64,000 bases of DNA from Bradyrhizobium algeriense (GTDB taxonomy: Bacteria > Pseudomonadota > Alphaproteobacteria > Rhizobiales > Xanthobacteraceae): assembly GCF_036924595.1 (NCBI RefSeq), contig NZ_JAZHRV010000001.1:2914001-2978000 (forward strand). Reading direction: 5' to 3'. Made by a program: the position numbers and the translations under genes. This document shows positions 7,492-63,115 of the stretch, in pieces (the first letter of the stretch is position 1; every line of letters begins with the position of its first letter). A model generated the notes under the pieces. The model was not told where the DNA came from. It did no database searches and was given only the letters and a program-made list of their open reading frames with translations.

Positions 7492-9015
7492 TCAGACGCG
7501 GGCGCGAACCGGCCGCAGCAGGAACGCCGGAAGATGCGAGTGATCGGCGGGCTCCGATTCAACATCGCGCTGGGCGCGCCGCGGTTCCGGACGACCGATC
7601 GAGGGCACGCGCGAAGGCTGCGCAGGGGCGGGCGGCGTGAAGGAAGCGGCCGCTGCCTGCGGCTGCGGGCCGGCACTGCGGCCTGCGCCCCTGGCATGCC
7701 GCGGTTCGCGCTCGCCGCTCTTGTCGGAATCCCTGGCGGGACGCGGCTCGCGTTCGCTGCCATCGCTACCCTTGGCAGCACGCGGCTCGCGTTCACGTCG
7801 CGGCTTGCGGCCGCCGCGTGAACCTTCCCGAGATCCCTCGCGTGAGCGGCGGGGCTGGTCGGTCTCGTCGGAGGCGACCGACTGCACGGCATAATCGCCT
7901 TCGGCGGCAGGAATGGTCTGGCCGATCAGCCGTTCGATCGCAGCAATCGATTTGCTGTCGAGCGGGCTGACGATCGAGATCGCGGTGCCGGCGCGACCGG
8001 CGCGTCCGGTACGGCCGATGCGATGCACGTAATCGTCGGCATGATGCGGCACGTCGAAATTGAAGACGTGGCTGACGGCGGGAATATCGAGGCCGCGGGC
8101 CGCGACGTCGGAGGCCACCAGCAACGGTATCTCACCCTTGCGGAACTGATCGAGCGCTGCGGTGCGCGCCGACTGGTCCATGTCGCCATGCAGGGCGCCG
8201 ACGCTGAAGCCGTGCTTCTGCAGCGATTTGTAAACGACGGCGACTTCGCGCTTGCGGTTGCAGAAGATGATCGCGTTCTGAAGATCCTTGGCGTCGCGCA
8301 GCAGGCGGCGCAGAATCTCGCGCTTCTCGTGCACCTCGCGACCGCCGCGAACCTGGAACTGCGATACGCCTGTCGCGGTGGTGGCGGGTTTCGAGACTTC
8401 GATCCGCTCGGGATTGTGCAGGAAGTCTTGGCTGATGCGGCTGATTTCCGGCGGCATCGTTGCGGTGAAGAACAGGGTTTGCCGCGTGAACGGCACCAGC
8501 TTGCAGACGCGTTCGATGTCGGGGATGAAGCCCATGTCCAGCATGCGGTCGGCTTCGTCGATGACCAAGAGTTCGACACCGGTGAGCAGCAGACCGCCGC
8601 GTTCGGTGTGGTCGAGCAGGCGGCCGGGGGTCGCGATCAGGACGTCGACGCCGCGGGTCAGTTTGGAATCCTGGTCGCCGAACGAGACGCCGCCGATCAG
8701 GAGCGCAACGTTGAGTTTCTGGCCGACGCCGTATTTGTCGAAATTCTCTTTGACCTGGGCGGCGAGTTCGCGGGTCGGTTCGAGGATCAGGGTGCGCGGC
8801 ATTCGTGCCCGGGCGCGGCCCTTTTCCAGCAAGGTGAGCATGGGCAGGACGAAGGCGGCGGTCTTGCCGGTGCCAGTCTGGGCGATGCCGAGAACATCGC
8901 GGCGTGCCAGAACGTGCGGAATTGCCTGTTCCTGGATGGGGGTAGGGGTGGTGTAGCCGGTGGCCGCAACCGCGGCGAGGACCTTATCGGAAAGGCCGAG
9001 ATGGGAAAAAGACAT
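7492..9015 (-). CDS. DEAD-box ATP-dependent RNA helicase, RhlE-like
   Basis: RNA helicase probably involved in ribosome assembly or RNA decay. All motifs are present: Q motif near PTPIQEQA, motif I AQTGTGKT (45-52), DEAD (153-156), TAT in place of the usual SAT (184-186), ARGLD and HRIGRTGRAGR. After about residue 385 the protein becomes a long low-complexity tail of RS/RE/RG units with repeated EREPR blocks, typical RNA-binding tails of RhlE relatives. 507 residues from ATG 9015; the further upstream start at 9033 would only add six residues. Confidence 0.95.
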   Translation of the reverse strand: MSFSHLGLSDKVLAAVAATGYTTPTPIQEQAIPHVLARRDVLGIAQTGTGKTAAFVLPMLTLLEKGRARARMPRTLILEPTRELAAQVKENFDKYGVGQKLNVALLIGGVSFGDQDSKLTRGVDVLIATPGRLLDHTERGGLLLTGVELLVIDEADRMLDMGFIPDIERVCKLVPFTRQTLFFTATMPPEISRISQDFLHNPERIEVSKPATTATGVSQFQVRGGREVHEKREILRRLLRDAKDLQNAIIFCNRKREVAVVYKSLQKHGFSVGALHGDMDQSARTAALDQFRKGEIPLLVASDVAARGLDIPAVSHVFNFDVPHHADDYVHRIGRTGRAGRAGTAISIVSPLDSKSIAAIERLIGQTIPAAEGDYAVQSVASDETDQPRRSREGSREGSRGGRKPRREREPRAAKGSDGSEREPRPARDSDKSGEREPRHARGAGRSAGPQPQAAAASFTPPAPAQPSRVPSIGRPEPRRAQRDVESEPADHSHLPAFLLRPVRARV

Positions 9016-9400
9016 TGAGCCTCTAGTCGACACCGCCGTTCGGAATCGAGGGTAAAAAGGCTGTCGCGTTTTGCCCCGAAACGGCGCGCTTTTGAAAAGC
9101 TGGGGGCTCTGACTTACGCAGACGAGCGGCTAACCTAGGGAATCGCGTTTCGATCCAAGGCCGCGTTGAGCCGGAACATAGGGGCGAAATGGCCAAAGTC
9201 AATCTGGGAACGGCCATATCGCCGAAAAAGCTTAATGTTCTCGCACAAATAACGGCCAAAACCGTCATTTGGGCGTCAAATCGGGCCGCTGTATTCCTAA
9301 CAGCGGTGGCCGTTGAACCGTGGGCATTGGGATGCCGACTATGGCATGAAGTGGCTTCGCACGGCTCAAACCAGGACCATTCGTGCGCTGGGGGAATTCG
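9016..9400. other. Divergent intergenic region, helicase / caspase-like gene
   Basis: 385 bases between two divergent genes, so it should contain promoters for both. The only structure I see is a small inverted repeat CCGCTGT / ACAGCGG around 9285-9305. A 71-codon ORF (9189-9404) crosses it but has no family resemblance and no convincing ribosome site, so it is not called. Confidence 0.5.
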
Positions 9401-14712: not shown

Positions 14713-15293
14713 CGGCGTGCTCCTAATGTGACGCGAAAATGGGCTGCGGCAGCCGGCACGACCCACGCCGCGCCCTTGCTGCGTTAGCAGGATACCCGGG
14801 CCGGGCAGCCACTCCTACCCCAGCGCTCGCCGCGCGCATGGGCGGCCTTCTGCGGCCCGCTAACATGGCGCACGCGACGATACCAGTCACAGTTACTGGT
14901 GCCGACCCCGCCCTGCTTCGGCAGGGGTCGATGTCCGCCGGCAGCGGCAAATCTAGGCATTCTCGGAAGGGGCGAGCCGGAGCCGGCATATCGGCAAATG
15001 AGAGACAAGAACGACGCCGAGATTGATCGACGGTTGATAACCAAGGTCTCTGACACCATGCACGCGCTCATTACCGCGCAGCGATTTAGTGCAATATATC
15101 TTTCGCGACGTTGAGCATTTTGCGACGCAAAATTCGGCCGCCTAGCGGCAACGTCGACTTCCGAGATGGTCAAAAGCGACATCCGATCGAAAGGGGACTT
15201 GGTCTGCTTTACCCCCACAAGAACGGACATCAGCTTTGGCTGTTACGGTGTCCGCTTATGGTCGCCTACGGCGGACATAGCGGGCCCATTCGA
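14713..15293. other. 581-base region without a confident gene
   Basis: The only coding candidate is a 38-codon ORF on the plus strand (14998-15114, MRDKNDAEIDRRLITKVSD onward), with no good ribosome site. At 14904-14930, CCGACCCCGCC / GGCAGGGGTCG forms a GC-rich hairpin. From about 15165 to 15290 the sequence (GGTCAAAAGCGACATCC, GGTCTGCTTTACCCC, ACGGACATCAGC, GTGTCCGC) looks like a degraded copy of the GGACATC dispersed repeat family. Confidence 0.45.
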
Positions 15294-16988
15294 TCACTTC
15301 GTCGGCGTGGGCGAGTAGCGACCGTTTGGAACGCTCGGCCCCGTGTCTATCATGCCCAGATCCACCAGCGTGCGATGGAATCGGCGCTTCTGTTCGGAAG
15401 GTGACGCAAAGTAGGTTTCCCGGCAATGGTCGAGCAAGCTGGCGCGGGTGGCAAATATCGGATCAAGCGGCAGACCTGCTTGCTGCAGGGCGACGGTCCC
15501 AAGAAAAGCAATATCGAGGTCCGCACCCGGTCCGGAAGCAAGGCGATCAGGTACGATGTTTAGCGCCTCCATTGCATAAAATGTGCGGAACGCGCGCCGC
15601 GCATCGTTGGGGAGTTTGAGTTGCCGATCGATCCGCTTCGCCACGACGGGCTGATGATCCCCGTAGTGCACAATGAGAACAGGACGTTTTGGAAAATTCG
15701 TTGTCAGCTCAAACTTGAGCCTGTTCCAGGTTGAGGCTGTTTCCGCGAGCCTTGCGTAGTATTCGGCATATTGAGCATCGGGAAGGCTTGATGCGGCAAA
15801 GGCACGTTCCCTCTCAAACTGTCCGGGTGCTGCCAGCCTTCGGTTGTGGGGGCCGTGATTGAAGTTAGTCAGTGCATATAGAAAGCGGGGCGCTGGGTCG
15901 TCAGCAATACCCTTCCTATGGGCCGCGAACGCCGCTTCCAGGAAAATTGCATCGGAATTTGTCGTCTCGAACTGGCTGATGTCGAACGGTGGAGGGAAAT
16001 CGTCCGTAAAGATGCGTTCGCCAATGCCAATCGAACGATAAAATTCATCGTAGCTGAGAAAGCTGCGACGACAGCTCGACGCGAGCATGGTCCTGTACCC
16101 AAGCGCAGCCAACGCATGGGGAAGACTGTTGTGAAATCGGCCCGCGCCCTGCTTGAAAAGGTAATAGGCATTTGAACCGAAGCTTGCACTTGAAAGACCG
16201 GTCAACAAACTAAATTCGGATTGCCACGAACCTCCGCCGAAAATGTCGACGTTAAGGATTCCATGGAGGCCATTCGTTGGGGACAGAAACGCTTCGACAG
16301 TCGGCTCAATCGGAAGTCCAAAAATGCGAGGATCGAAAATTGATTCATGCTGGATGACGATAATGTCGGGGTATTCGGTGGTGCGCGCTGGTACGGCCGC
16401 CATTAGCGGCAACGGGTCATTTGCAATATCGCTCAGAGCCAATCCGCCGACTTGCCGCCAGGAATGTGGATCGATGAGCGAAGCCATGAAGGTCGAGTAA
16501 AAGCACCGACGCTGGGCCATGATCCGCTGGAAGGAAATGCCGCCGCCGCTCATCCTGAAGGCCGTTACAACGCAAACAAGCGCAACGCTGAATAAAGAAA
16601 CTCTGACATCCAGGGGAATTGATGGCCCGGTTCCGTAGATCAGAGTAGCGATTACAGCCAGGACGAGTGCGGCAGTTCCAGTCAGAACGGCCAATACGGC
16701 GCGCGGGTACTGCGATGCGAAAAAGGGAACTGTGCCTGCAAACATCAGTGGCAAGTCGGTTACAATCAGCTTAAGCGCGCTGTAATTATGTTTGATGGTC
16801 GATGCGGCGGTGATTGCTGCGGCCAGCACACTGGCCAGCAGTATCGCTCTGTCGAAGTCGCCAACGATGAATGAGATTACGGCCGCGCTAAGGAAGAGCA
16901 TCGAGATTGCGAATGGCAGGTGCTCGGCGCTGCGTTCTGCCAGCACAATGACACCGATAGCTGCCAGCAATATCAGGGTCAGGATCAT
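15294..16988 (-). CDS. Membrane-anchored sulfatase-fold phosphotransferase (LTA synthase/MdoB-like)
   Basis: A 564-residue protein. About five membrane helices occupy residues 1-150, followed by an alkaline-phosphatase-superfamily domain: PDIIVIQHESIFDPR supplies the metal-binding Glu and the region of the nucleophile, GGGSWQSEFSLLTGLSS follows, and VLIVHYGDHQP carries the Asp-His pair near the C terminus. LTA synthase and MdoB/OpgB relatives transfer phosphoglycerol or phosphoethanolamine to glycans at the outer face of the membrane; this one may modify a periplasmic glucan or surface polysaccharide. No clear ribosome site precedes ATG 16988. Confidence 0.85.
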   Translation of the reverse strand: MILTLILLAAIGVIVLAERSAEHLPFAISMLFLSAAVISFIVGDFDRAILLASVLAAAITAASTIKHNYSALKLIVTDLPLMFAGTVPFFASQYPRAVLAVLTGTAALVLAVIATLIYGTGPSIPLDVRVSLFSVALVCVVTAFRMSGGGISFQRIMAQRRCFYSTFMASLIDPHSWRQVGGLALSDIANDPLPLMAAVPARTTEYPDIIVIQHESIFDPRIFGLPIEPTVEAFLSPTNGLHGILNVDIFGGGSWQSEFSLLTGLSSASFGSNAYYLFKQGAGRFHNSLPHALAALGYRTMLASSCRRSFLSYDEFYRSIGIGERIFTDDFPPPFDISQFETTNSDAIFLEAAFAAHRKGIADDPAPRFLYALTNFNHGPHNRRLAAPGQFERERAFAASSLPDAQYAEYYARLAETASTWNRLKFELTTNFPKRPVLIVHYGDHQPVVAKRIDRQLKLPNDARRAFRTFYAMEALNIVPDRLASGPGADLDIAFLGTVALQQAGLPLDPIFATRASLLDHCRETYFASPSEQKRRFHRTLVDLGMIDTGPSVPNGRYSPTPTK

Positions 16989-17183
16989 GTGAGTATGGTA
17001 GCTGGAGGTGAGCGGAACTCAACAATTGCCGCGTCGTTGAGGCAAGTAAAGATAACGTTCGTGTCGGGAAGCACGAGTCTGGCGCGAGCCGCTGGGATGC
17101 CGGCTCTGGCGGTGAGGCACGCGACAAGCGGCATGCGGGCAAGCTTCTATCTCGCTTGAAGGTCAGACATCAGGCGATCCGCG

Positions 17184-55660: not shown

Positions 55661-56140
55661 ATGTCACACGCCCGCAAAGAATACAGAGACTTCATGTCGC
55701 TGACGCCGGACGCCTACGAGGCCGTGCTGGCGCTGAGCCAGGTCGCGGGCAAGGCGGGCATGGACAAGCAACTGCTCGAACTGATCAAGCTGCGTGCCTC
55801 ACAGATCAATGGCTGCGCCTTCTGCGTGCAGTATCACATCCTGGAGAGCGAGAAGCTCGGCGTGCCCACCGATAAACTCAATCTCGTGGTGGTCTGGCGC
55901 GAGGCGCCGCAGTTCTCGCAGCGCGAGCGTGCGGCACTGGCATGGACCGAGGCGCTGACATCGCTCAGCGAGGGCGTCAGCGACGAGGTCTATGCAGAGG
56001 CGAGCGCCGAGTTCTCGGAGAAGGAACTCGCCTATCTCACGTCGGCGGTGGCGTCGATCAATGTCTGGAACAGGTTCGGCGCCGCCTTTCGTTGGACACC
56101 CCCGGCGCGGAAGCAGGCCGTGGACGCGGCAGCGTCATAG
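55661..56140 (+). CDS. AhpD/CMD-family alkylhydroperoxidase-like protein
   Basis: 159 residues of the carboxymuconolactone decarboxylase fold with the peroxidase motif: redox Cys52 and Cys55 in INGCAFCVQYH with His59. Length and sequence match the AhpD-related group that reduces organic hydroperoxides. The divergent MarR gene and shared operator suggest induction by an organic hydroperoxide or similar stress (inference). The last 143 bases recur, diverged, at 57072-57214. Confidence 0.93.
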   Translation: MSHARKEYRDFMSLTPDAYEAVLALSQVAGKAGMDKQLLELIKLRASQINGCAFCVQYHILESEKLGVPTDKLNLVVVWREAPQFSQRERAALAWTEALTSLSEGVSDEVYAEASAEFSEKELAYLTSAVASINVWNRFGAAFRWTPPARKQAVDAAAS

Positions 56141-56154
56141 AATTCAGGGGCGCG

Positions 56155-56230
56155 GACTCACTAGCGCCGCCGAACAGGATGCTGATGGGTGTAAGTTTGA
56201 TGAAGGCCAGATAGTTGGCCAACAGCGCGT
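56155..56230 (-). mobile_element. Remnant of an IS5-like transposase C terminus
   Basis: On the minus strand a frame reads ALLANYLAFIKLTPISILF, resembling the LANYLAFIKLASIRIWLR end of IS5-family transposases. Only about 25 codons are left, with a stop just upstream. It lies right after the AhpD-like gene and before the C13 protease gene. Confidence 0.55.
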
Positions 56231-56282
56231 GTCACGGACTGGGCTGCCATGCTATGGTAGCCATGACGAGACAAGGTTCGCA

Positions 56283-57029
56283 ATGACGTCCAACTCCTGG
56301 ATCAGCCGGCTCGGCGCACCGCTCATCGCGCTCGTCCTGACGGTCGTGCCGTCGGTTTCGCCGACGCACGCGGTTGAGGACGCTCCCAGGGTGAGCGTGG
56401 TGTCCTTTGGCCTTTTCGGCGATCAAGGCGTGTTTAGACGCGAGGCGACCGGCGCAGCACAGGTCGTGGCGGGCCGTTTCGGGAGCGGCCCAGTCAACGT
56501 GCAATACAATTCGAAGAAAGGCGGAGGCGCAACGATCGAGGCCCTGGCCATGTCGTTGCAAGTGGCAGCCAATGGGATGGACGCCGAGAACGACGTTCTG
56601 TTCTTGATTCTGACCTCGCATGGCTCCCGCGACGGTCTTGCAGTCAAAGCGGGGCGACTCACGCAAACGCTCACGCCGGCCAATCTCGCCGATATGTTGG
56701 CGCGGACGAGCGTGCGACACAAGGTGGTGGTCATCTCGGCCTGCTATTCCGGCGTCTTTATCCCTCGTCTTGCTAACCCCGATGTCCTGGTCATCACCGC
56801 GGCCGATGCCGACCATCCATCGTTCGGCTGCCAGGACAAGGCCAAGTGGACCTATTTCGGCGATGCCTTTTTCAACGTTGCGCTCCGGCGAGCTAGAAGC
56901 CTGAAGGAAGCCTTTGTTGTTGCGCGCGCGCTCGTCCGGAAGCGTGAACTGCGCGAGCAGTTCGAGCCATCGAATCCCCTGATGGCAGGCGGCGCAAACG
57001 TGCAGCCATTGCTCATCGCGAGTCCTTGA
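56283..57029 (+). CDS. Secreted peptidase C13 (legumain-like) family protein
   Basis: 248 residues. Signal peptide (residues 1-30, ending SPTHA) and a clan CD cysteine-protease core: VLFLILTSHGSRDGLAV with catalytic His113 and KVVVISACYSGVFIPRL with Cys154, the spacing of the legumain/caspase fold. ITAADADHPSFGCQDK follows, as in bacterial C13 members. It sits between the IS5 remnant and a diverged copy of the ahpD 3' end, and might be an insertion in that locus. Substrate unknown. Start ATG 56283. Confidence 0.87.
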   Translation: MTSNSWISRLGAPLIALVLTVVPSVSPTHAVEDAPRVSVVSFGLFGDQGVFRREATGAAQVVAGRFGSGPVNVQYNSKKGGGATIEALAMSLQVAANGMDAENDVLFLILTSHGSRDGLAVKAGRLTQTLTPANLADMLARTSVRHKVVVISACYSGVFIPRLANPDVLVITAADADHPSFGCQDKAKWTYFGDAFFNVALRRARSLKEAFVVARALVRKRELREQFEPSNPLMAGGANVQPLLIASP

Positions 57030-57377
57030 ACAATCGGCCGCCTTGCATCCATGAGCACTGGCGTGCTGTGCAGGCGAGCGCCGAGTTTTCGGAAAAGGAG
57101 CTGGCCTATCTCACGTCAGCGGTGGCCGCGATCAACGTCTGGAACAGGTTGGGCGCGGCGTTTCGCTGGACGCCGCCGATGCGCAAGCCAGCCGCGGGTG
57201 CGGCGGCTTCGTAACGATGAAAATTAGTTAGCAGCTGGACAGGCCTCCCTGGCTTGCGGGGCGACGGAGAACGCCTAGCCCGTGCAACAAGCAATCCCAA
57301 TAACTGCGGTTGGGTGATGCACATCTATGGTTGCAGGGCGCCTCGCCAAGACCTACTACTGTCGCGGGGAGTCCGGG
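57030..57377. other. 348-base spacer holding the ahpD fragment and the upstream region of the nuclease-helicase pair
   Basis: Apart from the ahpD-like 3' fragment (57072-57214) no gene is seen. The 160 bases after it should contain the promoter of the downstream two-gene unit; I see no clear operator or terminator. I looked for a tRNA or attachment-site-like direct repeat and found none. Confidence 0.5.
57072..57214 (+). pseudogene. Diverged 3' fragment of the AhpD-like gene
   Basis: 143 bases that align without gaps to 55998-56140, ending at the stop codon. The encoded 47 residues (ASAEFSEKELAYLTSAVAAI onward) differ from the intact gene at about seven positions, while many third-codon bases differ. 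The fragment has no start codon or ribosome site. The mostly silent differences suggest it came from a functioning homologous gene rather than drifting as a pseudogene. Confidence 0.9.
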
Positions 57378-58169
57378 ATGCCTATTACATTTAGTGTTAT
57401 TGGGAGCAAAGACGATTGGGCCGGTAGCAGTTGGACCATCACCAACGACAACGAATTGGCAGAGTTGGTGGCCAAGGTTGCTCTTGGTCAAAGCCGATAT
57501 GTGCGTCGCGTGCTTAAAGAAACCGGCTTCGCTGTTCCAGACGCGAAGGAAACGGAACTTGCCGGAGCGCTAAAACTGCTCACGTCGACAGATCCCAAAC
57601 AGCCGTGGCATCGTGACGGTTGGATGTTTCAGGTCATCTCCTGGATCGCAGCGAACCTTCAAGACCCAAATGGCCTGATTGCACACCCTCATATGATCCA
57701 CGCGCACAAGGGCTTTGACGGTATCCACGTAAAACTCGATCCTAAAACCAAGGAAGTCACATGCGTCGTGATCTGCGAAGAAAAGGCGACGGACAACGCC
57801 CGGAAAATGGTCCGCGACCGCATTTGGAAAGAGTTCGAAGGAATGCAGAAGGGCGAGCGCGACAATGAACTGGCTGCGGAAGTCACGAGACTTTTAGAGA
57901 CGGCAAAGGATATTGACGTGGACTCGGCGGTCGAAACAATTGTGTGGAAGAGCGCCCGTTACTATCGCATATCCATCACCATCGGCGATGAACACAACTA
58001 TGCAGGCGGCCGTCAGAAGCTCTTTGACGGCTACAGCGTGGTGGTGAATGGAGAGGTCACCCGACGTCGCGGCGAGGTACTCTACTTAAAGAACCTGCGG
58101 GCCTGGATGGCAGCGCTTGCTGATTGCGCCGCCAAAAAGGCCAAGGCGATGGTTGCTGCGCATGTATGA
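57378..58169 (+). CDS. Nuclease-like subunit of a nuclease-helicase defence pair (HamA-like, tentative)
   Basis: 263 residues from ATG 57378 (GGGGAG six bases upstream); an in-frame ATG at 57327 is possible. Residues 110-150 read KGFDGIHVKLDPKTKEVTCV then VICEEKATDNARKMVRDRIW: Asp114, Glu134 and Lys136 fit a D-(X)n-ExK nuclease core on a beta-hairpin. The N-terminal 100 residues are mixed alpha/beta. The pairing with a large Ski2-like helicase starting 53 bases later is like HamA-HamB (Hachiman) and AbpA-AbpB. Membership in the HamA family (DUF1837) is my judgement from layout and motif, not a search result. Less GC-rich than neighbours by eye. Confidence 0.65.
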   Translation: MPITFSVIGSKDDWAGSSWTITNDNELAELVAKVALGQSRYVRRVLKETGFAVPDAKETELAGALKLLTSTDPKQPWHRDGWMFQVISWIAANLQDPNGLIAHPHMIHAHKGFDGIHVKLDPKTKEVTCVVICEEKATDNARKMVRDRIWKEFEGMQKGERDNELAAEVTRLLETAKDIDVDSAVETIVWKSARYYRISITIGDEHNYAGGRQKLFDGYSVVVNGEVTRRRGEVLYLKNLRAWMAALADCAAKKAKAMVAAHV

Positions 58170-58222
58170 CCCTGACACTGCCCATCTGATACGCTCGGCT
58201 CCACCGCTTGAGGGATTGGACC

Positions 58223-61200
58223 GTGAGCGACTTCCAGAGGAGCTATCGAAAGGCATTCGCCCGTATTGTCGCCGCTAGGTTTCGCCTGCGAGAAGGTGGA
58301 ATCGACGACGATCAAGAGGTCGTCGGTCTTATTGCTGAGATGCAGCGGCTGGCATTCACAAATGAAGTTTTAGTGGCCGTTTCCCCGGATCGCGATGACC
58401 GCGCGGCCGCGGCGTTCGTCGCGGGGACCGCACATCAACTCTGCTTTAATGCCCGGCAGATAGGGGCAGAGGATGAAGCGAGCGGTACATACATAGATGC
58501 AAATGCTGTTTCATCCGACGTCGCGGCCATGCTGCTCTTCCTCGTTGCTGAGGCAACGGCAGATGCCAGCGAGATCGGCAGCCATTTAAATTCGGATGGC
58601 TTTTCACCGGTTGAGCGCACGCTGATCGAAGCGCTTCGATCGCTGGCACGAGGTGAGCTTGTTGGGATCACATCAGCCACCCTACCTTCGAAGGATGCCG
58701 TTACGGGGGATACCGCAGCTGAGGTTGCTGCACTAGCACTGTACTACAAGATATTGCTCGGGGTGCGCGCGCTAGCGAACCAGCTTTTGCGCGGAGATGA
58801 TGAAGCCAGTCAAGCGACCGAAATTTTCCGGTCGGTATTGCGCTTGAGCTCGGCAGCCCGTCCCGATGGTGGAAGCTGGCTTGGGGGAGAAGTGGGATCG
58901 TTCGCCGGCCCGCATCACTTGGCCTCACTACTACTCGCGGTTTCCGGGGATTTGTCCGGCAGCGCTGTAACTGGTGTTCAGCCTCCATCCGGCCTCGATG
59001 GGAATAAGTGGCTCAACGCAATGCGTCGGATCGCCCGTAAGCGACCTTACCTGTGGAGAAATCATCGCGAGGCCGTTGCAGAGGGTTATCTGGAGGCCGA
59101 GAACTCCGCTGCGGTGAGCTTCCCTACAGGTGCGGGAAAGTCGACGCTATCCGAGTTAAAAATTTACGCTACGCTGCTCCGCGAAAAGAAAGTCGTATTC
59201 CTCGCTCCGACCAATGCTTTGGTGGGCCAGACGACGATAAGTCTCCGGAAGACTTTTAGAAGGACCAAAGTCGAGCAGGAGCGCTTCGATGAAATCGGCT
59301 TCTTAAGTGAGGAGGATAACTTACCGGAAATCTTTGTGATGACACCGGAGTCATGCTTGGCACAAATGAGCATCGAGCCCACGGTGTTTGCAGATGTAGG
59401 CCTGCTTATTTTTGACGAATGTCATTTGTTGCATCCTGAAGAAGGTCGAGGGAGGCGGGCGCTCGACGCAATGCTGTGCTTGCTCAATTTTGCGGGTTTG
59501 GTACCAGGCGCCAGCTTCCTCCTCCTATCCGCAATGATGAAGAATACAGACGAGATTGCGGGTTGGATCCAAGAGATGACAGGGCGTACTTGCCTTTCGC
59601 TCTCGTTTCCGTGGAAACCTACGCGGCAACTGCGCGGAAGCCTTGTGTATCCGCAGAGCGACGTGGACAAACTAAGCGACGGCTTGGTGAAGGCTGGCCG
59701 CACGCGAAAGACCAAAGCACCGTCGACCAAGGATAAAGAGAAACTGAAAAGCGTACCTATGGGCCTGTTCAGCCTTAAGCAGACATGGGCAACTCGCAAT
59801 ACCGAGGACTACACCCTACTTGGTCTGCTCGACGAGGCCGTCAACCTTACAGCTAGCAAGTGGTGGAAGTTAACTCCCAATTCTGGGTTAGTCTCATCTG
59901 AGATCGCGTCAGCGGCGGCGGACGCTGGCGTTAGGACGCTGGTCTTCTTCCAAACGATCCAGAACGCGGTGAGCGCTAAGAACAGGATAACTAAACGCCT
60001 TGGCGAGGTTCAGATCAAGCTCACTGAGGATGAGCGAGGGTGGTGGGCGACAAGCGAGCTGGAAGTTGGCGGCGCAGACCATCTGTTTCTCGACGTCCGC
60101 AAAGGGAGTTTAGTATCGCCGTGCGTCGTTCATCACGGCCTGCTGCTGCCTGAAGAAAGGCAACTGTGTGAGTCCCTCTACCAGCGCGCAAACGGCGCAA
60201 CGATAATGGTGGCGACGTCCACGGTGTCGCAGGGGATGAACTTTCCAAGCGAGGTGGTGATCATCGCTGAGGACAGCCGCTTCGATCAAGCCAAAGATCG
60301 CCGCGAGGTCTTGCAGGCCCAGGAGCTCCTCAACGCAGCGGGGAGGGCCGGCCGGGCCGGGCAGAATGCGAACGGCATCGTGTTAGTTATCCCCGGCAAG
60401 GTGGTCGGCATTGATGTGAAGGATGCTACGATCGGAGCGCATTGGACCGAGTTGCAGAAGGTCTTCAGCCAGTCCGACCAGTGCTTGGAAATAGACGACC
60501 CGTTGACGGCCATTCTCGACCGTGTGCATGCGGCGGTGGGCGACAAGGGGGACGTCGACCGTTACGCGATTGCTCGATTGGCGTCTGTGGGGCTTGAGGA
60601 CGCGGTCAAGAAATCGCTGTCCGGCTTTAGGGCGCGTAAGCGTGGTGATCAGGGGTGGATCGAAACACGACTCGCGGCAGCGGTAGCTTTCCAGCAAAAG
60701 CAAAAACCAGAATCTGACGACGATTTGGTGGACCACCAAGTTGCCTCGACCTTAGGGATCGCAATGCCTGTGATGGAGCGCCTCTCCAAGGATCTCGACG
60801 AAGCGACAGACCACGACACGGTCACTGATTGGCGGAAGTGGTTCTTCAGCTGGATCGGAGCCAATGGCGATCTGTTCGCTCAAATCTTCCGGCCGGAGAC
60901 CATTGACGACTTGTTTGGGAAAGACGTCACGTCGCTTGAGACGAGCGAGGAAAGGTGCGCGTTTGCCTTACCCTACCTGAAGAAGCTTACGAAGCTATGG
61001 GTACGAGGACATCCTTTGACCGACCTCGAGGAAGCGCTCGGTACACCAGCCGGCAAACTGAAGGCCTGTCTTGGCGCGCGGAAATTCGTACTCCGTGTTG
61101 TGCCAGAGTTGGGCTACTTGTTTGGTGTGCCCGCGTTGCTGAAACAGCGTCAGAGCGCAGCGGAGGGCAAGGAAGCCAACTTAGGGCCCGCGCTGACGAA

Positions 61201-61399
61201 GTTGGGCGCGTGCGTCCGATATGGCTATCAAACCTACGAGCAGGCGGCGCTCGGATTCTACCTCAGAGAAAGCAAACTATCGCGCAGGCAGCTTCATGAT
61301 CGCTTTGCTGCCGTTAAGCCGCATCTGCCACCTGCGAAAAAAGGCGAGTCTTGGGATGATGCGGTAAATAGAATCGAGGTGGCGGTGCTCCTTGGATAG
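58223..61399 (+). CDS. Large Ski2-like DEAD/DECH-box helicase (HamB-like, tentative)
   Basis: 1058 residues from GTG 58223 (GAGGGA seven bases upstream). Superfamily 2 motifs in order: FPTGAGKS (300-307, Walker A Lys306), FLAPTNALVGQT, DECH (398-401), LLLSAMMKNTDE (motif III), ATSTVSQGMNF (664-674, motif V) and NAAGRAGRAG (704-713, motif VI). About 290 residues before and 340 after the helicase core have no family I can name and may bind the partner. The whole unit looks like an ATP-dependent nucleic-acid sensor with a nuclease. An IS630-like remnant starts just after its end; base composition differs from the flanking core genes. Confidence 0.8.
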   Translation: MSDFQRSYRKAFARIVAARFRLREGGIDDDQEVVGLIAEMQRLAFTNEVLVAVSPDRDDRAAAAFVAGTAHQLCFNARQIGAEDEASGTYIDANAVSSDVAAMLLFLVAEATADASEIGSHLNSDGFSPVERTLIEALRSLARGELVGITSATLPSKDAVTGDTAAEVAALALYYKILLGVRALANQLLRGDDEASQATEIFRSVLRLSSAARPDGGSWLGGEVGSFAGPHHLASLLLAVSGDLSGSAVTGVQPPSGLDGNKWLNAMRRIARKRPYLWRNHREAVAEGYLEAENSAAVSFPTGAGKSTLSELKIYATLLREKKVVFLAPTNALVGQTTISLRKTFRRTKVEQERFDEIGFLSEEDNLPEIFVMTPESCLAQMSIEPTVFADVGLLIFDECHLLHPEEGRGRRALDAMLCLLNFAGLVPGASFLLLSAMMKNTDEIAGWIQEMTGRTCLSLSFPWKPTRQLRGSLVYPQSDVDKLSDGLVKAGRTRKTKAPSTKDKEKLKSVPMGLFSLKQTWATRNTEDYTLLGLLDEAVNLTASKWWKLTPNSGLVSSEIASAAADAGVRTLVFFQTIQNAVSAKNRITKRLGEVQIKLTEDERGWWATSELEVGGADHLFLDVRKGSLVSPCVVHHGLLLPEERQLCESLYQRANGATIMVATSTVSQGMNFPSEVVIIAEDSRFDQAKDRREVLQAQELLNAAGRAGRAGQNANGIVLVIPGKVVGIDVKDATIGAHWTELQKVFSQSDQCLEIDDPLTAILDRVHAAVGDKGDVDRYAIARLASVGLEDAVKKSLSGFRARKRGDQGWIETRLAAAVAFQQKQKPESDDDLVDHQVASTLGIAMPVMERLSKDLDEATDHDTVTDWRKWFFSWIGANGDLFAQIFRPETIDDLFGKDVTSLETSEERCAFALPYLKKLTKLWVRGHPLTDLEEALGTPAGKLKACLGARKFVLRVVPELGYLFGVPALLKQRQSAAEGKEANLGPALTKLGACVRYGYQTYEQAALGFYLRESKLSRRQLHDRFAAVKPHLPPAKKGESWDDAVNRIEVAVLLG

Positions 61400-61474
61400 T
61401 TGATTGCGCGACATCCCGACCTCGATCGCTGCCACCACACGCCTCCGGAGGTTGAGAGAGTAAGGCTTGCCCAT
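61382..61474 (-). mobile_element. Remnant of an IS630-like transposase N terminus
   Basis: On the minus strand from 61474 the frame reads MGKPYSLNLRRRVVAAIEVG then MSRNQLSKEHR, the usual start of IS630-family transposases (MGKPYSLDLRRRVVAAIEGGMSRNQAAK). It covers only about 30 codons and then runs into the 3' end of the helicase gene on the opposite strand. No inverted repeats were identified. Confidence 0.75.
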
Positions 61475-61537
61475 CCATGCTGGCCTCCTGCTCAGTCAGC
61501 ATGGTCCCAAATAGATTCAACCTAGCTCCATCCCGCT

Positions 61538-63115
61538 TCAGTTCTCGCGGCCTTCTCGCGCGCTGTGGCGAAGGACAGCCTCCGGTAGCGCGTGGGCCAC
61601 GGCGGCGGCGATCGGGGGATCGGTGCCGATCTCGCGGCCGCGGCCGCGGATCAGCCGTTCATAGGATGCGATCAGGGTGGTGTAGGGGTTGACCCAGATC
61701 CAGCCGTCGCGCGTGAACACCTGTATGTCGAAGTGGAGATGGTACGAGGTGCCGTTCGGGAAATCGAGATAGTTGGAGACCACGCCGATCTTTTCGCCCT
61801 CGGCGACCCGGCGCCCGTTGAGAATGCCGTCCGCATCCATGGCTGACGGGTTCATGTGCATGTAGCGGAAACGGATGTGCTCGTTGCGGGTGTTGATCTG
61901 CAGCGTCGCCGCCTGCTGCTTCAGTGAGCGGATCACGATGCCGTCGCGGACGGCCACGACGGCCTGCTTCCTCGGATGGCAACTGCTTTCGCTGTTGCTG
62001 TTCGGCGGGCAGGGCGCGGGACGGATGTCCTGGCCCTGATGCCCGAAGCCGGCGGCGCATTGCCCGACCTGGAAGCTGCGGGATTCGCAAAAATTGTCCC
62101 GCCACGGATAGACGCCGCGGCCCCCCTCGGACTTTTTGCTGCCGAAGGATTGCGAGCGGACGGCGGTCGGGGTTTTCGCGAGCGGAAAACGGATTTGCGA
62201 ATAGGCGGCGAAATCGGCGCGTCCGCCGCGCCGACGCACGCTGCTACGGGCGATGATGTCGCCGCCCGGGTAATAGGTGAAGTCGGGCGAAACCGCCGTC
62301 GGCCGTTCAACGATATCGGACGAAATGTCGTGGCGTGGCTGCGCCGGTTGTCCGCCCGCGATGCGCAAGGCTTTCAGAAAACGCTCGGCAATGGGATAGG
62401 CCTCGCGGCAGGCCAGCCGACGCGCCCGCGGCGTTGAATCGAGACACTGGATCGACACCACATAGGGCACGCCAAAGCGCGTGAAGGCGTAGCGCACATA
62501 GCCTTCACGGATGAAGCGGCGCATGTCGGGGAACTGCGACGCCAGCGCCTTGACCGGCTCGCCCTTGCCGCCGCGCGGATCGGCGAGGTCGTAGACGAGG
62601 ATCGAGCCGGTAATCTGCACTTCGACCGGCCTGGCGAAGATTCGCGACGGCAGACCGCCGCCTGCGCCAGGCTGCAGCGAAAACACCGCGTCGTAGCCGG
62701 AAGGGCCGGCGTGGAACAGGTCGGCGGGGCGGAAATCGGCCTGGTAGCGCGACAGCGGCAGCTGTGTGCCGTTGGCCTCGCCTTCGAGATAGCCTGCGGT
62801 ATCGAACGGCAACAGCACCGGCACCGGACTGCGTCCAATCCCGGCGAACAGGCTTGCGTTGATGGCGTTCAGTTGCACCAGCGCGGGCGTCGAGCGCGGA
62901 TCCCATGCCGGCACGCGCCGCTGGCCGGCGAACGTAAATCGGGAAGCGATCGCCGGTTGGGTGGCGATCTCGGTGCGGAGCCGATCGAGAACCGCGCGCC
63001 ATTCGACGCGGACGGCCGTGATCGACGGCGTCCGGAACTCGGCGGCGGCTGCGGTGAGCCCGGCCGGGAGCAAACAAAGGGCTGCCAGCCAACGCCTGAG
63101 CAAGCGGACAGCCAT
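61538..63115 (-). CDS. Secreted M23-family (LytM) metallopeptidase-like protein
   Basis: 525 residues. Signal peptide MAVRLLRRWLAALCLLPAGLTAAAA. The C-terminal third holds the M23 zinc site: GFGHQGQDIRP (His, Asp) and SYHLHFDIQVF (HxH). The N-terminal 300 residues are a domain with four Cys around TPRARRLACREAYP and NFCESRSFQVGQCAAGFG that I cannot assign. The protein probably cleaves peptidoglycan cross-links or acts as a cell-wall amidase activator. ATG 63115 is taken as the start; a TTG three codons earlier is also open. Confidence 0.88.
   Translation of the reverse strand: MAVRLLRRWLAALCLLPAGLTAAAAEFRTPSITAVRVEWRAVLDRLRTEIATQPAIASRFTFAGQRRVPAWDPRSTPALVQLNAINASLFAGIGRSPVPVLLPFDTAGYLEGEANGTQLPLSRYQADFRPADLFHAGPSGYDAVFSLQPGAGGGLPSRIFARPVEVQITGSILVYDLADPRGGKGEPVKALASQFPDMRRFIREGYVRYAFTRFGVPYVVSIQCLDSTPRARRLACREAYPIAERFLKALRIAGGQPAQPRHDISSDIVERPTAVSPDFTYYPGGDIIARSSVRRRGGRADFAAYSQIRFPLAKTPTAVRSQSFGSKKSEGGRGVYPWRDNFCESRSFQVGQCAAGFGHQGQDIRPAPCPPNSNSESSCHPRKQAVVAVRDGIVIRSLKQQAATLQINTRNEHIRFRYMHMNPSAMDADGILNGRRVAEGEKIGVVSNYLDFPNGTSYHLHFDIQVFTRDGWIWVNPYTTLIASYERLIRGRGREIGTDPPIAAAVAHALPEAVLRHSAREGREN

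Follow-up and report, generated by a model that had tools for sequence, protein, structure and literature searches.

Two adjoining genes in a 64,000-nucleotide stretch of the Bradyrhizobium algeriense genome (contig NZ_JAZHRV010000001.1, positions 2,914,001 to 2,978,000 of the forward strand; hereafter the window) raise the question of whether a putative nuclease (gene A) and a large helicase (gene B) together form an anti-phage system and, if so, of which kind. A first-pass annotation of this DNA had described the pair as resembling the Hachiman and AbpAB systems. The present analysis points to a divergent Hachiman-type anti-phage system, with a probability of about 0.83; the predicted fold of A, the matches of B to HamB models and its place in phylogenetic trees, the patchy distribution on mobile elements and the defence genes adjoining the pair in relatives argue for a Hachiman-like pair with a lineage of its own.

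The protein encoded by A carries D114 followed by E134-E135-K136, and D114, E134 and K136 are invariant in all 21 aligned A proteins (the window copy counted). In the predicted structure D114 stands immediately before a strand (residues 115–120), E134 and K136 end a second strand (127–136) and a helix follows (141–157), a modelled layout that is PD-(D/E)xK-like, as had been proposed from the letters. When the model was compared with a set list of families, for which alone the comparison speaks, it matched HamA over 231 residues, ~8 Z units above the other nucleases compared, and the HamA-like fold fills the model of this 263-amino-acid protein at 12% sequence identity. A thus combines a HamA-type nuclease fold with a conserved D-E(X)K.

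The second protein was stated to be a 1058-residue Ski2-like helicase with motifs I, II, III, V and VI, and all of these were found (I, PTGAGKS with K306; II, DECH; III, SAM) and are kept, with small variations, in 16/16 aligned B proteins (alignment A3, which omits L004 and L006, where B is cut by the locus end, and L040, L042, L066 and L067, where B is broken; L numbers denote the loci studied). The PADLOC HamB models match all 16, and a profile comparison with long HamBs gave E 7.7e-48 over 938 columns, chiefly in the helicase core. Phylogenetic trees, built without Hel308 and omitting L044 (split HamB) and L048 (none found) with L006 kept, supported the B clade at 100 in three cases. Its place among the HamBs was unsettled with one or two distant outgroups (support 48; 24.4/67); when five eukaryotic Ski2-type cassettes were added, B, HamB, AbpB and PDC-M23B were split from these at 92.3/98, with B as sister to HamB/AbpB/PDC-M23B at 81.5/90. 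By the models, the tree and the adjacency, B is a HamB-family Ski2-like helicase adjoining the HamA-like gene.

The pairing is constant and the distribution is sparse. A B homologue follows A in all 20 relatives of alignment A1, whose members are from 78% down to 27% identical to the window A; L105 and L106 also carry the pair, and a search that used just a helicase model revealed two more family helicases (L119, L120), both with an adjoining A. Among 197 related genomes six have A (five from the same genus), and among 385 genomes of the class three have the family, the own genome being counted in both. Family loci in species genomes number at least eight, a lower bound since exact peptide seeds were used. 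The family was also found in 11 of 72,556 plasmid records (6 conjugative, 2 mobilizable, 3 non-mobilizable), of which H2, H10 and H11 lie outside the detailed locus study. No match appeared among 50,697 phage records; one viral contig locus matched and reads, by eye, like L009. In the four other carriers of the genus A is on a different contig from the M23 peptidase gene that neighbours the pair in the window (three) or ~4.1 Mb away from it (one). The first-pass annotation had named placement of the first protein in an unrelated non-nuclease family, or conservation of the pair as a housekeeping unit at the same locus in all relatives, as outcomes that would speak against it, and neither was observed.

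A neighbour survey, covering the nearest longest open reading frame (ORF) on each side at 10 of the 17 surveyed loci, gave PADLOC matches at E<=1e-10 for 6 of 20 proteins, spread over 6 of the 10 loci (OLD/GajA-like, PDC-S31, DrmC over 56 residues only, AbiEi, PDC-M68B and OloB at 1e-179), against 0/10 for hand-picked genes elsewhere in the window, a small control from one genome that omits the helicase-like gene at ~7492-9033. Seven more neighbours, picked for promising annotation or position, gave six matches. In Rhizobium sp. ZX09 (L071) the pair adjoins Septu PtuA and PtuB; on Beijerinckia indica pBIND01 (L065) its neighbours are a short prokaryotic Argonaute (pAgo) with its restriction endonuclease (REase) partner, and a ThsB ~3 kb off; in L064 the match is a Fic protein. 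The L120 neighbour was without a match. The L065 region is dense in defence genes in its own right, with the short pAgo and REase partner, A-B and a ThsB-like TIR protein within ~11 kb.

Several results weigh against the Hachiman assignment. The HamA/DUF1837 profile (Pfam PF08878) scored 14.2 bits on A, below the curated cut-off of 25, and matched only 2/21 A members at E<=1; the PADLOC models likewise missed A by sequence. When alignment A1 was compared by hhalign with an alignment of HamA (A2; 19 of 22 PF08878 hits, two near contig ends and one long fusion being left out), the probability was 4.6% (P 0.0088), although D, E and K fell in register, and with the HamA partners of long HamBs (A7) it was 0.3%. 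Searches between A and HamA by hmmsearch in both directions, filters off, gave E 0.0084 (L002, Rhizobium rhizophilum) and 0.012 (window) at best, and searches of the PDB with the A sequence returned no match or chance-like ones (best E 0.044). The family signal of B sits mostly in the helicase core, its N-terminal part alone resembling that of HamB weakly (P 0.041 over 61 columns; C-terminal part, 9.3e-5), and by PDB profile score (HamB 132.7, SKI2 124.1, an archaeal Ski2-type chain 117.8 and the two-cassette SLH1 241.6 bits) the sequence of B leans only slightly towards HamB, hardly ahead of SKI2. In HamB the N-terminal part holds the helical bundle (NAH) through which HamA is bound, and a counterpart in B is hinted at only by that weak N-terminal resemblance. 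In the window itself none of the neighbours scanned with Pfam is a defence gene, and the copy of B there appears interrupted near its start. Since A could not be proven to be a HamA by sequence alone, the fold comparison decided its identification, and since the PF08878 cut-off was not reached, the label used here is Hachiman-type rather than membership of the Pfam family, the cut-off being a measure of detection and not of mechanism. Of the profile and structure comparisons that the first-pass annotation had proposed, the profiles thus recovered B and missed A, and the predicted structure of A supplied the link to HamA.

The interruption concerns the conserved N-terminus of B. In the family this begins with the consensus MFDxxTxxLIxxAPxLxGLDxxxLPxxLT, and the annotated B start overlaps the A stop by 8 bases in L065, L067, L068 and L071. 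In the window an ATG at 58162, likewise overlapping the A stop, opens the conserved N-terminus, MYDPDTAHLIRSAPPLEGLDRERLPEEL, and the main B ORF, in another frame, joins the family pattern only at about AFARIVAARFRLR, which places a frame break at about 58240-58262. The gap of 53 bases reported between the genes is therefore misleading, a by-product of the break. The break may mean that the copy is damaged, that translation begins at an internal start or that the assembly is wrong at this point, and judged from the sequence this copy may not work, so that the break bears on any experiment using the strain's own genes. There is an even chance that the window holds a decaying, non-working Hachiman-type locus, which would be compatible with a Hachiman-type identity of the family: L040, L066 and L067 also have B spread over several ORFs, with L042 as a further split case, and a possible transposase fragment lies at the edge of the locus, set against the remaining 1058 codons, which are open with motifs intact, an internal start that could serve and the possible assembly error. 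The A ORF is still present in all four split-B relatives, which hints at repeated loss of B.

As to the family, a convergent origin, in which a restriction-type nuclease joined a Ski2-like helicase to give an independent defence system that resembles Hachiman, appears unlikely. The lack of significant similarity between the A and HamA sequences, the weakly HamB-like flanks of B and the omission of Hel308 from the tree would suit it; the extent and score of the fold match between A and HamA, the grouping of B with HamB, AbpB and PDC-M23B apart from the eukaryotic cassettes, and a gene order and adjacency the same as in Hachiman argue against it.

The AbpAB half of the earlier comparison did not hold up. 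In AbpAB (E. coli K-12 yfjL/yfjK) a HamA-related protein is likewise combined with a Ski2-like helicase; AbpA carries a HamA domain (PMC10732053), and the tree places AbpB on the HamB side. If A-B were such a system, HamA would be a mere linker domain and another nuclease would cut, which is very improbable: AbpA bears a Cap4 nuclease domain together with a HamA site that is inactive (PMC12278908), whereas the 263 residues of A are filled by the HamA-like fold with no Cap4-type domain detected by Pfam, D/E/K are intact in 21/21 and AbpB lies in another branch than B. The PADLOC candidate PDC-M23 also has a ~265-amino-acid protein upstream of a HamB-like helicase, with G-x-D and G-E-x-K seen by eye in PDC-M23A; its model, which scores 6e-98 on the true PDC-M23A in L117, matched 0/21 family A proteins at E<=1, and its helicase belongs to another branch than B. 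The PDC-M23 locus itself (L117:3927-7993), with a helicase that groups with HamB, may be a further Hachiman relative. Hachiman type II of PADLOC shares the hamA-hamB core, to which it adds hamC (DUF3223), and a Pfam scan of five proteins encoded near the pair in the window showed no DUF3223.

Ski2-like helicases and nucleases are also employed in DNA repair, and a chromosomal repair unit is hardly credible given the rarity of the pair, its presence on plasmids, its absence from the site in near relatives and its defence-gene neighbours.

What separates the Hachiman-type pair described here from Hachiman proper (PDB 8vx9; PMC12278908) is its sequence. Both have the A-then-B order, a HamA-type fold with D...ExK, a Ski2-like HamB-type helicase and a mobile, defence-island setting; HamA has RSG-x-x-GE where family A has its own R-D-G helix motif, family A is below Pfam and PADLOC detection, and family B is a separate deep clade whose N-terminal part is scarcely alike in sequence. 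The suggestion that the pair is divergent enough for a distinct subtype is thereby borne out, the clade of B and the elusiveness of A marking a lineage of its own by the tools used. Somewhat short of even odds is given to the fuller proposal that the family is a deep lineage, sister to all sampled HamB/AbpB/PDC-M23B, with a nuclease beyond sequence recognition that the sequence models tried miss, an R-D-G helix of its own and a helicase that may restrain and release the nuclease differently.

In characterised Hachiman HamB restrains HamA, recognition involves a DNA 3' end, and motion of the helicase activates HamA, whereupon phage and host DNA are degraded (PMC12278908). Given that the fold is shared, the active site conserved and the motor HamB-like, this scheme is the best guess for A-B, and complex formation, trigger, DNA cutting and protection are proposed by analogy. 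B would form a complex with A that keeps the nuclease idle as B scans DNA; on meeting an end, a gap or damage inflicted by an infecting phage, B would begin ATP-driven movement, and this would switch on A, whose cleavage of both phage and host DNA would end the infection.

The coordinates are collected in the table. The lower base composition noted by eye was found by count, guanine-plus-cytosine (GC) content being 53.8% in A and 56.8% in B as against 62.2% in the window, and third-position GC 0.61 and 0.64 as against 0.83 in the CMD and 0.74 in the C13 gene. B matches only itself in the 8.1-Mb one-contig genome. Pfam identified the neighbours as MarR, CMD, C13 peptidase, M23 peptidase and elongation factor P genes. 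When the site was compared in the six genomes whose M23 genes come closest (89–93% identical), A-B was absent in all five where the site is readable, which delimits the insertion. The flanks lie ~70 (L089), ~265 (L090) and ~5 bases (L092) apart, L091 and L093 have two other genes, L,D-transpeptidase-like by eye, between CMD and M23, and the L094 contig starts inside an apparent L,D-transpeptidase-like gene with the left flank out of view. The duplicated gene fragment that had been reported is a 142-nt copy of the CMD tail, and the transposase remnants claimed are only partly borne out: at the right edge a reverse-strand peptide may represent the start of an IS630-type transposase (by eye; no Pfam match), and none was seen by eye upstream. 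Promoter-like and terminator-like sites were not above shuffles, and neither tRNA genes nor Rfam matches at the gathering threshold were present in the window.

Features of the A-B locus in the window
Feature	Position	Strand	Basis
Tail of intact CMD (AhpD-like) gene, reference copy of duplication	55998..56139	+	
Inserted stretch absent from near relatives, approximate	57036..61540 (left edge 57036-57054; right 61534-61547)	.	Comparison with relatives' sites
Partial second copy of CMD gene tail, left edge of insertion	57072..57213	+	82% identical
Gene A, HamA-like nuclease, 263 aa	57378..58169	+	ORF list, alignment, predicted structure, fold comparison
Gene A active-site codons	D114 57717-57719; E134 57777-57779; K136 57783-57785	+	
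Conserved gene B N-terminus, family position, frame differs from main B ORF	58162..58251	+	Match to family consensus
Gene B main ORF, HamB-like Ski2-type helicase, 1063 aa (TTG 58208) or 1058 aa (GTG 58223)	58208..61399	+	ORF, profiles, trees
Gene B motifs	K306 59138-59140; DECH 59414-59425	+	
Possible transposase N-terminal remnant, right edge	61394..61477	-	By eye

The interval between CMD and M23 (56140-61540) is variable in the genus: in near relatives it is empty, carries the C13 gene or is occupied by a pair of L,D-transpeptidase-like genes. In the window the C13 (legumain-type) peptidase gene (55992-57029) lies between the two CMD tail copies; it adjoins M23 in two near relatives and its N-terminus is signal-peptide-like by eye. 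Some Hachiman systems include nuclease-protease pairs (PMC12799240), and a caspase-nuclease unit with the C13 gene just upstream of the pair was considered and rejected: C13 adjoins M23 without A-B in L089 and L090, and C13 occurs in 39 of 117 sampled genus genomes (M23 in 114) as against A in five. At 15001-17000, unrelated to the pair, GC drops to 0.54-0.56, and a 564-aa minus-strand ORF is present.

In annotated plasmid records A is a 'hypothetical protein' and B, where annotated, a 'DEAD/DEAH box helicase'; a literature search recognised no description of the branch, subscription papers being mostly outside its scope and absence from print not being claimed. Hachiman reportedly occurs in over 5% of prokaryotic genomes (PMC12278908), and adding this branch widens its scope. 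The alignments (21 A, 16 B) can be used for finding more members, the findings hint that HamB-like helicases partner several nuclease families, and the branch offers a natural comparison for how a helicase restrains its nuclease.
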